A DNA stretch of 64,000 bases. It comes from Arthrobacter sp. zg-Y238. Its GTDB lineage: Bacteria > Actinomycetota > Actinomycetes > Actinomycetales > Micrococcaceae. Positions 60,878 through 64,000 of this stretch are shown here, one piece after another. The stretch is from NCBI RefSeq assembly GCF_024385525.1, contig NZ_JANFLU010000008.1:124001-188000 (forward strand), given 5' to 3'. A program made the position numbers and the translations under genes. The notes under the pieces are model-generated. The model was given only the letters and a program-made list of their open reading frames with translations, did not search any database and was not told the origin of the DNA. Every line of letters begins with the position of its first letter. Position 1 is the stretch's first letter.

Positions 60878-61845
60878 CCCGGGTCTGCGTGACCGGCGGC
60901 AACGGTTTCCTGGGCAGCGCGGTGGTTGCCGGATTGGCAGGACATCCGGAGGTCTCGTATGTCCTTAGCCTGGACATCCGGGAACCGGCGGAGGAACGCC
61001 GGCTCGCCGGGGTCGAGTACGCCCTCGCGGATGTGTGTTCCCCGGACGTGGCCCGGCTGCTGCAGTCGCACCGGATCGACACCGTGGTCCATCTGGCCGC
61101 CATTGTGAATCCCGGCAAGCACACCACCCCCGAACAGGAATTCTCTGTGGACGTGCTGGGTTCACGGAATGTCCTGGCGGCCTGTATCTCCTCCGGAGTG
61201 AAGCATGTGGTCATTTCCTCTTCCGGCGCCGCATACGGTTACCACCCGGACAACCCCTCGTGGCTGAAGGAATCCGATCCGCTCCGCGGCAATGACGAGT
61301 TTGCCTACTCCCGGCATAAAAGGCTGGTCGAGGAGGAGCTGGCCAGGCTCCGCGAGGAACATCCCGAGCTGCAGCAGACCATCTTCCGGATCGGCACCAT
61401 CCTCGGCGAACGGGTCCGCAACCAGATCACCGCCCTTTTCGACGCACGGAAACTGCTGCGGGTAGCCGGCAGCGATTCCCCGTTCGTGTTCATCTGGGAT
61501 GAAGACGTGGCCGGCATTATGGTGCAGGCCGTCGTCACGGGACGCAGCGGCATTTTCAACGTCGCCGGAGACGGTGCCCTGACCGTCCGGGAAATCGCAG
61601 GGCTGCTGGGGCGCGGCACCATCACGGTTCCGGCACCGGCCCTGGCCGCCGCCCTCTGGCTGGGACACCTGCTGCGGCTGACCGTCCACGGGCCGGAGCA
61701 GGTGAGGTTCCTGCGCTACCGGCCGGTGCTGGACAACACCGCGCTTAAGCAGGAGTTCGGGTTTACCCCCACCCGCACCAGCCGGGAAGCGTTCCTCGCG
61801 TTCCGTGCAGCCCGGGACGCCGCCCGGGACATACGTCAGAAGTAG
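60874..61845 (+). CDS. NAD-dependent epimerase/dehydratase family protein (extended SDR)
   Basis: A 323-residue extended short-chain dehydrogenase: nucleotide fold VTGGNGFLGSAVVAGLAG, ALADV for the adenine ring, and the active-site region VISSSGAAYGYHPDN with YSRHK (YxxxK) near residue 147. Similar proteins act on nucleotide sugars or 3-beta-hydroxysteroids; substrate unknown. Third member of the coupled cassette with the monooxygenase and transporter. Its end overlaps the convergent sigma-factor gene by 10 bp. Confidence 0.88.
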   Translation: MTRVCVTGGNGFLGSAVVAGLAGHPEVSYVLSLDIREPAEERRLAGVEYALADVCSPDVARLLQSHRIDTVVHLAAIVNPGKHTTPEQEFSVDVLGSRNVLAACISSGVKHVVISSSGAAYGYHPDNPSWLKESDPLRGNDEFAYSRHKRLVEEELARLREEHPELQQTIFRIGTILGERVRNQITALFDARKLLRVAGSDSPFVFIWDEDVAGIMVQAVVTGRSGIFNVAGDGALTVREIAGLLGRGTITVPAPALAAALWLGHLLRLTVHGPEQVRFLRYRPVLDNTALKQEFGFTPTRTSREAFLAFRAARDAARDIRQK

Positions 61846-62867
61846 GACACGCCGTTCGTCTTGAAGGGCAGTCCCAGGCCGCCGGCCACCTCGGCCAGGA
61901 CTTCGGGGCAGAAGAAGTACAACCGAAGTTCGGCAATCAGGGGTTCCCCGAGGGCACCGCTGAGACGAAGAACATCGGCGACAACCTCGGGCGTCTTAGG
62001 CGCATCCTTGGGGCGTTCCCACAGGAGGATTACGTCCTCGCCGTCATAGCTGTGCACGCTGGCCCGGTAGAGCTCTGCGGCATCCGGCCCGAAGGTGTGG
62101 GTCATGGAGCCGGTTCGGATCTCCTCGTGCCCGGTTTCGCTGACGTTGCCGATCACCACCGTGCGCCCGCCGGTCAGGAACAGGCTGACCATCGCATCGA
62201 TGTCGTAGGAGTTGAAGGCATCGGCGAGGCGGCGCAGCAGCTCCGGGTGTCCTTCCGGCTGCGGTGGTTTGGTCCCGGAGCCGGCGGCAGCGCCGTCGTC
62301 GTCGGCGGGCACGGATCCTCCCGCCCGGGCCGTTGCCAGCGTGCTCCGGCCGCGGTGAAGCGCGGACTTTACCGCCCCGGCGCTGGTGTCCAGCGTTTCC
62401 GCGATCTCGGCCAGGGAGTAGCGAAACACGTCCTTGAGGACCACGCAGGCCCGTTCCTGAGGGGGCAGGACCAGCAGCAAATGCTCCAGCGCCGACTCCA
62501 CCTCCAGAGACGTCAGGGGATCCGCGGCGCCGTCGTCGGGCACGTCCACACCCGGTTCGCTGAAGTCCTGCACCGCTGTCCGGCCACTGCGGCGCAGGGT
62601 GTCCAGCCAGGTATTCGTGGCGATCCGGATCAGCCAGGCCTCCACGTTGCTGATGGGTTCATGCCGCTGGGAGGCATCGGAGAGGGCCTTCACCAGGGTT
62701 TCCTGCAACAGGTCCTCGGCGTCCCAGACAGTGCCGGTCAATCTGCGGCAGTAACGGTAAACGGCCGGGCGCACAGGCTCGAGCGCTACGAGGAAATTCC
62801 TCCTGGCCTGCCGAAGTTCTCCGGCCTGGATGTTTACCGGTTCCGGCTTCGTTGCTGCTACTGACAT
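61836..62867 (-). CDS. ECF sigma factor with SnoaL-like C-terminal domain
   Basis: A 343-residue extracytoplasmic-function-type sigma factor. Region 2 (about 25-95) has YRYCRRLTGTVWDAEDLLQE and WLIRIATNTWLDTLRR; region 4 (about 122-178) has LPPQERACVVLKDVFRYSLA and AGAVKSALHRGRSTL. After a Pro/Gly linker, residues about 208-343 form a SnoaL/NTF2-like domain (LLRRLADAFNSYDIDAMVSL), as in SigJ/SigG-type groups where the tail replaces an anti-sigma factor. No anti-sigma gene is adjacent. ATG 62867 follows GGAG; an extension to 63008 has no support. Confidence 0.92.
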   Translation of the reverse strand: MSVAATKPEPVNIQAGELRQARRNFLVALEPVRPAVYRYCRRLTGTVWDAEDLLQETLVKALSDASQRHEPISNVEAWLIRIATNTWLDTLRRSGRTAVQDFSEPGVDVPDDGAADPLTSLEVESALEHLLLVLPPQERACVVLKDVFRYSLAEIAETLDTSAGAVKSALHRGRSTLATARAGGSVPADDDGAAAGSGTKPPQPEGHPELLRRLADAFNSYDIDAMVSLFLTGGRTVVIGNVSETGHEEIRTGSMTHTFGPDAAELYRASVHSYDGEDVILLWERPKDAPKTPEVVADVLRLSGALGEPLIAELRLYFFCPEVLAEVAGGLGLPFKTNGVSYF

Positions 62868-63033
62868 TCCTGGCTCCATTCCGTTCGGCCGCCCCGGCGG
62901 CACCTGCGATAACAATGGCATTCCTGCGTTGGTCCTACCGGGTAGACGCACGGGAAGGGACAAAAGATACGCCGGGGTCCATCCGACCTGCGGCTCACCC
63001 GAACACACTGGCTCCGAGGGCCGTGCGCTGTTG

Positions 63034-63039
63034 TAAAGT
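63034..63039 (+). promoter_or_regulatory. Promoter box of the leuS leader
   Basis: TAAAGT followed by six bases (GGAGAA) and the ATG of the leader peptide; the same spacing as other leaderless starts in the window. Confidence 0.6.
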
Positions 63040-63045
63040 GGAGAA

Positions 63046-63072
63046 ATGATCGCAGTACTCCTCCTTAGCTAG
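63046..63072 (+). CDS. Putative leucine leader peptide upstream of leuS
   Basis: An 8-codon frame, MIAVLLLS then TAG, with three consecutive Leu codons (CTC CTC CTT). GGAG lies close before the ATG, although the promoter box would put the transcript start nearly at the ATG. Two hairpins follow directly, the second with a T-run, giving the layout of ribosome-mediated attenuation. Translation is not proven. Confidence 0.6.
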   Translation: MIAVLLLS

Positions 63073-63126
63073 CCGCGCACCGTCAGTGCGCGGCCGCCCC
63101 TTGCTTGTCGAGGGGCTTTTGTGTGT
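63072..63126 (+). promoter_or_regulatory. Attenuator hairpins before leuS
   Basis: Hairpin 1: GCCGCGCAC (63072-63080), loop CGTCA, GTGCGCGGC (63086-63094). Hairpin 2: GCCCCT (63096-63101), 9-nt loop, AGGGGC (63111-63116), then TTTTGTGTGT. The Leu-codon segment CTCCTC (63058-63063) could pair with GAGGGG (63110-63115) with one G-U, opening hairpin 2. About 90 further leader bases precede leuS, with a small GGGCC/GGCCC repeat (63149-63168 area). Confidence 0.6.
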
Positions 63127-63213
63127 CTGGGGAGGACCCAAAAATTTAAGGGCCGGATTTACCGACGGCCCGCAGCGCGGATCGATTTTCTTTGAGGACA
63201 GAGGCGAAGCATA

Positions 63214-64000
63214 GTGAGCACGCAGTCACAGACTGATCAGCAGGAAGAGGCCGTCTACAGTTTCGCGGCCATCGAGCAGAAATGGCCGAAGGTCTGGGAT
63301 GACCTCGGTGTTTTCACCCCTGCCGACGACGGCTCGCGCGAACGACGCTATGTACTGGACATGTTCCCGTACCCCTCCGGCGACCTGCACATGGGCCACG
63401 CCGAAGCGTTCGCGATGGGCGACGTCGTCGCCCGGTACTGGCGCCAGCTCGGCTACGACGTGCTGCACCCGATCGGCTGGGACTCCTTCGGCCTGCCCGC
63501 GGAAAACGCAGCCATCAAGAACAACGCGCACCCCAGTGACTGGACCTACCGCAACATCGAGACGCAGGCGGAGTCCTTCAAGCGCTACGCCATCAGCGTT
63601 GACTGGTCCCGCCGGATCCACACCTCGGATCCCGAGTACTACCGCTGGACCCAGTGGCTGTTCACCCGCTTCTACGAGCGAGGCCTGGCCTACCGCAAGA
63701 ATTCCCCGGTCAACTGGTGCCCCAAGGACCAGACCGTGCTGGCCAACGAACAGGTAGTCAACGGTGCCTGCGAACGCTGCGGAACCCAGGTCACCAAGAA
63801 GTCGCTGAACCAGTGGTACTTCAAGATCACCGATTATGCCGACCGCCTGCTCGATGACATGGAACAGCTCAAGGGCCACTGGCCCGAGCGTGTCCTGGCC
63901 ATGCAGAAAAACTGGATCGGCCGCTCCGAGGGCGCGCACGTCCGGTTCAACATCGAGGCCGACGGCGGCAAGCCCGCCGAGCAGGTCACCGTCTTCACCA
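63214..64000 (+). CDS. leuS: Leucine--tRNA ligase (3' end outside window)
   Basis: Charges tRNA-Leu. The GTG at 63214 opens a frame that runs off the window after 262 codons. Visible parts of the class I core: [18 protein letters not shown] with the HIGH motif as [24 protein letters not shown], and the zinc-type Cys pairs in [16 protein letters not shown] and [20 protein letters not shown]. The editing domain and KMSKS lie beyond the end. GAGG occurs about nine bases before the start. The gene is preceded by a leucine-rich leader peptide and attenuator-like hairpins. Confidence 0.95.

Follow-up and report, generated by a model that had tools for sequence, protein, structure and literature searches.

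A conserved candidate leucine-responsive attenuator upstream of leuS in Arthrobacter sp. zg-Y238

The window analysed here (64,000 nucleotides of contig NZ_JANFLU010000008.1 from Arthrobacter sp. zg-Y238) carries, ahead of the leucyl-tRNA synthetase gene leuS, a leader element that we regard, on sequence evidence, as a real and conserved candidate for a leucine-responsive attenuator (Table 1). It is likely, in our judgement, that this element acts as a ribosome-mediated transcription attenuator. Cognate codons before a cognate synthetase in many genomes, the rise of Leu towards the first hairpin (P1), the rare CTT codon, the Leu that Glutamicibacter-type leaders retain at codon 7, a fixed register, covariation of P1, a published S. 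lividans leader with a matching peptide and recurrence of the design before cimA argue for this reading; against it stand the lack of an antiterminator, the many genomes with no match, natural variants (L050; L012 and L036), the spacing of Glutamicibacter-type leaders and the reported behaviour of codon mutants in S. coelicolor ilvB and leuA leaders. The original prediction had described a −10 box, an eight-codon frame with Leu codons, and two hairpins with a T-run before leuS, all of which are confirmed on reading the sequence. Its proposal of a Leu-codon leader peptide followed by an intrinsic terminator is supported by the comparisons below, and the leaderless start it suggested is probable.

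Table 1. Features of the leuS leader region (positions are those of the window).
Feature	Position	Strand	Basis and remarks
−10 promoter element TAAAGT	63034..63039	+	Read from sequence; 6 nt to the start codon
Leader ORF, 8 codons, MIAVLLLS*, probably leaderless	63046..63072	+	Sequence; relatives of the genus
Key regulatory codon 7, CTT (Leu)	63064..63066	+	Codon counts across leuS leaders
Hairpin P1, 9 bp	63072..63094	+	5′ arm 63072–63080, 3′ arm 63086–63094; covariation
Intrinsic terminator hairpin, 8 bp, GCCCCTTG/CGAGGGGC	63096..63116	+	Folding, terminator scan; P1 lies 1 nt upstream
Terminator U-tract TTTTGTGTGT	63117..63126	+	Read from sequence
Possible anti-leader segment GUCUGGGGAGGA	63125..63136	+	Complementary to 63059–63069 (helix P0); suggestive only
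leuS, leucine--tRNA ligase, runs off the window	63214..64000	+	NCBIfam TIGR00396

The leader frame (ATG ATC GCA GTA CTC CTC CTT AGC TAG) leads directly into P1, which has the arms GCCGCGCAC and GTGCGCGGC and opens on the G of the TAG stop codon. Within the U-tract of the terminator, TTTTGTGTGTC is invariant across 22 aligned leaders from the genus and its nearest relative. The leuS start lies 87 nt past position 63126, and the product matches its NCBIfam model with an E-value of 3.5e-114 over the 262 codons inside the window. The segment 63047–63135 folds at −44.3 kcal/mol, compared with −32.6 ± 3.0 kcal/mol for shuffled sequences (z −3.9; 0/200 shuffles as low), and a terminator scan of 62850–63300 on both strands returned four sites, two of which are versions of the leuS leader terminator, against a shuffle mean of 0.5. 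Conservation is nevertheless stronger evidence than these folding statistics that the element exceeds chance. At the Rfam gathering threshold the window gave no match, the best being a chance-level one (E 0.55); a T-box, a riboswitch or another known RNA family was rejected on this absence. On the minus strand, an ORF at 61836–63008 resembles an ECF-type RNA polymerase sigma factor, judging its translation by eye; it points away from the leuS leader, and the intergenic region is common to both.

Many Arthrobacter and allied genera share the eight-codon frame with Leu at codons 5–7, the TAG stop, the same base of P1 and the same terminator. We compared 80 named leuS loci, the top 80 of at least 591. 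A covariance model (R1), trained on the window together with 24 of them, matches 54 of the 80 at E ≤0.01, the 24 training loci included. The 26 loci missed by R1 include all those from Kocuria, Rothia, Nesterenkonia, Yaniella and Micrococcus; three of the 26 (L052–L054) carry a diverged leader, by eye, and in another, L055, the contig starts 48 nt before the match. Within the family of the window, 161 of 295 genomes match R1 and 134 do not; 24 matching genomes belong to its genus, which has no member among the 20 listed of the 134 non-matching ones. In a class-wide draw, 143 of 394 genomes match, leaving 251 with no match, whilst a phylum sample yielded 17 of 296, three of them outside the class. 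In two of these three, leuS follows directly; in the third it follows one match, the other match of that genome lying at a contig end. We fetched 108 of the class matches, a non-random set which includes the window's own and for which second matches were picked deliberately: leuS lies downstream in 89, cimA in 12 and ilvB in five, whilst one (L128) is unassigned and one (L141) is at a contig end. NCBIfam searches covered six of the 12 cimA proteins and three of the five ilvB proteins, the others being named by likeness. The one extra R1 match in the window's own genome is weak (E 0.2) and reads as chance. A leuS leader-peptide element is thus common across Actinobacteria, beyond Streptomyces.

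Codon choice and spacing were compared across 125 parsed leuS leaders, with identical sequences counted once (L135 was omitted as a repeat of L113). The parse set aside 24 of the 162 distinct leaders of all kinds, for having no two separate hairpins or no recognised frame, and six of these 24 carry the peptide MRAVRLLLSEPR; codon counts use 123 leuS leaders, two more having no codon in register. The eight-codon frame occurs in 65 of the 125. The codon nearest P1 encodes Leu in 120 of 123 leaders and is CTT in 111; Leu climbs towards the hairpin, from 9/123 one codon further upstream to 105, 114 and 120/123 at the three codons that follow. By comparison, CTT makes up 72 of 1240 Leu codons (about 6%) at the start of leuS itself in the 80 named loci (the best 80 of at least 591). 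Rare, particular regulatory codons are what the theory of sensitive attenuators is reported to call for (PMC1183508).

The register of the last Leu codon is similarly constrained. It lies 5 nt from P1 in 98 leaders and 4 nt in 21 (4–5 nt in 119/125), and P1 in turn is separated from the terminator by 0 nt in 74 and by 1 nt in 43 (0–1 nt in 117/125); the span of P1 varies from 12 to 69 nt. Frames end in two ways: one residue after the key codon, with the TAG at the foot of P1 (66 of 123 leaders), or four residues after it, within the P1 5′ arm (50). Conservation thus attaches to the codon-to-hairpin distance and to the rare codon, not to the stop.

Several leaders depart from this pattern. Five of Glutamicibacter type (L052–L054, L056 and L060; named so in two of these records and Arthrobacter in the other three) retain the eight-codon length but have Leu at codon 7 alone, and their P1 starts further off, at about 8 nt by eye. 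In L012 (1257–1368) and L036 (1344–1454) CAG replaces the TAG stop of their relatives, and the frame enters P1 as in the Streptomyces form. The leader of a Micrococcaceae metagenome-assembled genome (L050, 137–234) has intact hairpins with Pro (CCT) as key codon. Finally, a contig labelled Sporosarcina beigongshangi (L035; NZ_JADHDY010000020.1) carries an Arthrobacter-like leuS, 85% identical to that of the window, with an Arthrobacter-type leader; this assembly looks mislabelled or contaminated.

The P1 helix is real: among 25 aligned leaders both sides change at five of the nine pairs, and within the genus alone they do so at three of nine. Taking P1 and the terminator hairpin together, 29 cells changed on both sides compared with 10.5 ± 2.9 in shuffles (0/500), and the two hairpins score 0.185 for covariation, slid versions staying at or below 0.093; a weaker measure gives six both-sided pairs compared with 4.3 in shuffles (58/500 as high), slid versions reaching seven. 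The original prediction had proposed looking in relatives for conserved Leu codons and covarying stems; both the codons and the stems proved to be conserved, with P1 covarying.

A simple sigma-70 promoter scan gave no full promoter, with a good −10 element and an unrecognisable −35. In 119 of 123 leuS leaders a TANNNT box precedes the leader start by 6 or 7 nt, the start having been picked independently of the box, although some bias remains in this count as R1 contains the −10 columns. Spacing of 6–7 nt between −10 element and start codon fits leaderless transcripts, and the leader transcript of the window organism is probably leaderless. A leaderless start of leuL2, before leuS of S. lividans, is reported to be backed by RNA-seq (PMC8079986).

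The arrangement suggests the following mechanism. Transcription would begin at or next to the ATG, to judge by the −10 spacing, and a 70S ribosome would load at the 5′ end of the transcript and read the eight codons. When charged tRNA-Leu is abundant, the ribosome would clear the three Leu codons and leave; P1 and the terminator would then fold side by side, and transcription would stop. When charged tRNA-Leu is scarce, the ribosome would halt on the last, rare Leu codon, CTT. Given the size of the ribosome footprint, a ribosome halted there would mask roughly five bases at the start of the P1 5′ arm, a mere 5 nt downstream, so that the base of P1 could not close; with P1 open, the terminator would be poor and leuS would be made. 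As the base of P1 is the only strand that can be covered from the key codon, we take P1 to be the sensor. Since the search for a competing antiterminator turned up none, P1 is cast as a termination helper, which might stack on the terminator or serve as a pause hairpin. The step from P1 to termination is inferred from position.

A strictly classical attenuator of the trp type, in which the antiterminator takes the form of a pseudoknot, includes a protein or escapes nearest-neighbour folding through weakness, is an unlikely alternative, although codons, first hairpin and terminator are ordered as in trp and Streptomyces leuS leaders were described in 2005 as having both antiterminator and terminator hairpins (PMC1262725). 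Equilibrium folding with ribosome masking was uninformative, since the terminator of the E. coli trp control persists in all states, and it was dropped in favour of a co-transcriptional test in which the terminator 3′ arm is left out: does a stalled ribosome release a strand able to sequester the terminator 5′ arm ahead of 3′ arm synthesis? Sequestration in six E. coli control leaders was 0.62–0.88 with the ribosome stalled and, in five of them, 0.01–0.25 with the ribosome at the stop; the his attenuator was unresponsive (0.74 stalled, 0.73 at stop), and thus the test detects five of six controls and misses some true cases. Across the 125 leuS leaders the mean stall-minus-stop difference was 0.0 and reached 0.3 or more in three, so that the terminator 5′ arm is unresponsive to ribosome position in 122. 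The P1 3′ arm paired with the terminator 5′ arm no better than swapped partners did (59/60 swaps as low). The original prediction had the Leu-codon segment pairing with the terminator 3′ arm. This pairing is possible in the window (−9.5 kcal/mol); as a switch it does not hold up, being no better than swapped partners across relatives (33/60 as low), and it would act the wrong way, because a stalled ribosome covers the Leu codons and would free the terminator. The usual antiterminator appears to be absent, or of a form unseen by folding.

The close apposition of P1 and terminator would also suit a mechanism of opposite polarity, in which a closed P1 sterically hinders the terminator, a ribosome at the stop opens P1 and brings about termination, and an upstream stall gives read-through. 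In both leader forms, a ribosome terminating translation would sit over the P1 5′ arm; yet a stall at the key codon, 4–5 nt from P1, would itself open the base of the hairpin, and a stall site farther away would fit better. We consider this polarity improbable. No likelier is a post-termination mechanism, in which the terminator is constitutive and the leader ORF pairs through helix P0 so as to control stability or translation of the leuS mRNA, in the manner of the leuA LEU element. In the window, P0 would join 63059–63069 to 63125–63136 at −16.1 kcal/mol, the partner adjoining the originally predicted range on its outside. For 48 leaders of the window's family, cognate P0 energies average −19.1 kcal/mol compared with −16.9 kcal/mol for swapped partners (0/2000 swaps as low; control region 1722/2000). 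The signal weakens elsewhere, with 20/2000 in other families (control 137/2000), p 0.059 on 14 leader clusters, 153/2000 for 18 distinct leaders within the genus, and none in cimA leaders (723/2000). Counting minimum free energy structures, at least five P0 pairs occur in 97 of 124 leaders, against 75–92 in shuffles and 83–101 in swaps; 21 of 124 leaders fall under the 5% mark of a shuffle test (six expected), compared with 12 of 124 for a control stretch, and in a separate test the control stretch was low too (0/500), with a mean spoilt by placeholder energies where the duplex is absent. The partner segment ends 77 nt ahead of the leuS start and is not the leuS ribosome-binding site. P0 could form only in read-through RNA and cannot be an antiterminator; as a third helix it is suggestive only.

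Leaders of the same build as the preferred, P1-based attenuator occur before other genes. A second model, R2, made from ten Ile leaders upstream of cimA, matches 250 of 394 class genomes, a count that includes cross-hits to leuS leaders, and it also matches the leuS leader of the window (E 4e-8). We examined 48 cimA loci, comprising 30 listed R2 matches and 18 chosen from lower ranks, of which 11 repeat leaders found with R1 (ten of them R2 training sequences) and 37 are new; tblastn against leuS, cimA and ilvB references placed cimA downstream in all 48. Five were set aside at parsing. In the remaining 43 the last Ile codon is ATT in 33 and ATC in 10, and lies 5 nt from P1 in 32 and 4 nt in six; the gap between P1 and terminator is 0–1 nt in 42. 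The cimA leader loci (L218–L249, L251–L253 and L255–L267, together with L118–L121, L123, L132, L178, L182, L186, L189, L193 and L194) carry mini-ORFs with Ile runs, for example VQRTAIIIP* and MQHRHIVIP*, which mostly look leaderless and are followed by P1 and a terminator. The five ilvB (acetolactate synthase) leaders found by R1 (L125, L130, L176, L179 and L195) contain Val, Ile and Leu codons in a similar layout; the 5-nt register was parsed in L176 and seen by eye in L125 and L179, and L130 and L195 do not parse to it. Rfam, run on eight loci of the leuS, cimA and ilvB kinds (three of them cimA), gave no match other than a tRNA.

A tentative generalisation, which we rate at somewhat less than an even chance, is that a single modular design without an antiterminator, in which the first hairpin decides between termination and read-through, is used for several amino acids across Actinomycetota, with Leu codons ahead of leuS, Ile codons ahead of cimA and Val/Ile/Leu codons ahead of ilvB. 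It would consist of a leaderless mini-ORF, a codon for the sensed amino acid (mostly a rare NTT) placed 4–5 nt before the hairpin, and a terminator that directly adjoins this hairpin; all that the stalled ribosome would do is open the foot of the first hairpin. An Ile leader before citramalate synthase would, in many genomes, couple the citramalate route to the supply of isoleucine. A design that rests on the position of the codon relative to P1 may also partly explain why codon mutations in the S. coelicolor ilvB and leuA leaders are reported to lack the classical response (PMC1262725). One small construct would now suffice for a direct test of how such leaders work with no visible antiterminator.

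In the literature consulted, which was represented mostly by titles and abstract openings, neither a Micrococcaceae leuS leader nor a cimA leader appeared. A later comparative paper by the group behind the 2005 study reportedly treats aminoacyl-tRNA synthetase attenuators, and for that reason we claim no priority for either kind. For leuS as such, the novelty implied by the original prediction was overstated: attenuators before leuS were predicted in 2005 in S. avermitilis and S. coelicolor, as classical ones (PMC1262725), and leuL2 of S. lividans is described as leaderless, encoding the peptide MRAVRLLLSEPR, with a hairpin and U-run upstream of leuS (PMC8079986). One R1 match, L115, encodes exactly this S. 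lividans peptide.

Set beside known systems, the leader of the window shares with the trp-type attenuators (E. coli trp, thr, leu, phe and ilv) a cognate-codon ORF, codons within reach of the first hairpin, and an intrinsic terminator behind it. It differs from them in the probable start at the 5′ end without a Shine-Dalgarno sequence and in having P1 flush with the terminator; as far as folding tests go, it also lacks their mutually exclusive antiterminator that a stalled ribosome would favour. The leuA LEU element of actinobacteria (PMC1262725) similarly has a run of Leu codons in a leader peptide and possible pairing with a purine-rich downstream segment. There, the run pairs with the Shine-Dalgarno sequence of the target gene and there is no terminator, neither of which applies in the window, where an intrinsic terminator is present and the suggestive pairing partner is not the target Shine-Dalgarno. 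The ilvB leaders of Actinobacteria resemble the leuS leader in having branched-chain codons, P1 and a terminator ahead of the target gene, with different codons and a different target.

The closest likeness is to the Streptomyces leuS leaders, which are described with a Leu-codon peptide, a hairpin, a terminator and a leaderless start (PMC1262725; PMC8079986). With its LLL leader directly upstream of leuS, hairpin and terminator, the element of the window belongs, by anatomy, to this actinobacterial leuS leader (leuL2) kind. This kind was already known, and the form in the window appears to differ in lacking a visible antiterminator: the 2005 study claims one for Streptomyces (PMC1262725), and none emerged from our test of 125 leaders, which leaves the six MRAVRLLLSEPR leaders outside. 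The two forms also differ in how the frame ends, the eight codons of the window closing with TAG directly at P1, whereas the Streptomyces frame, LLLSEPR-stop, runs into the hairpin.
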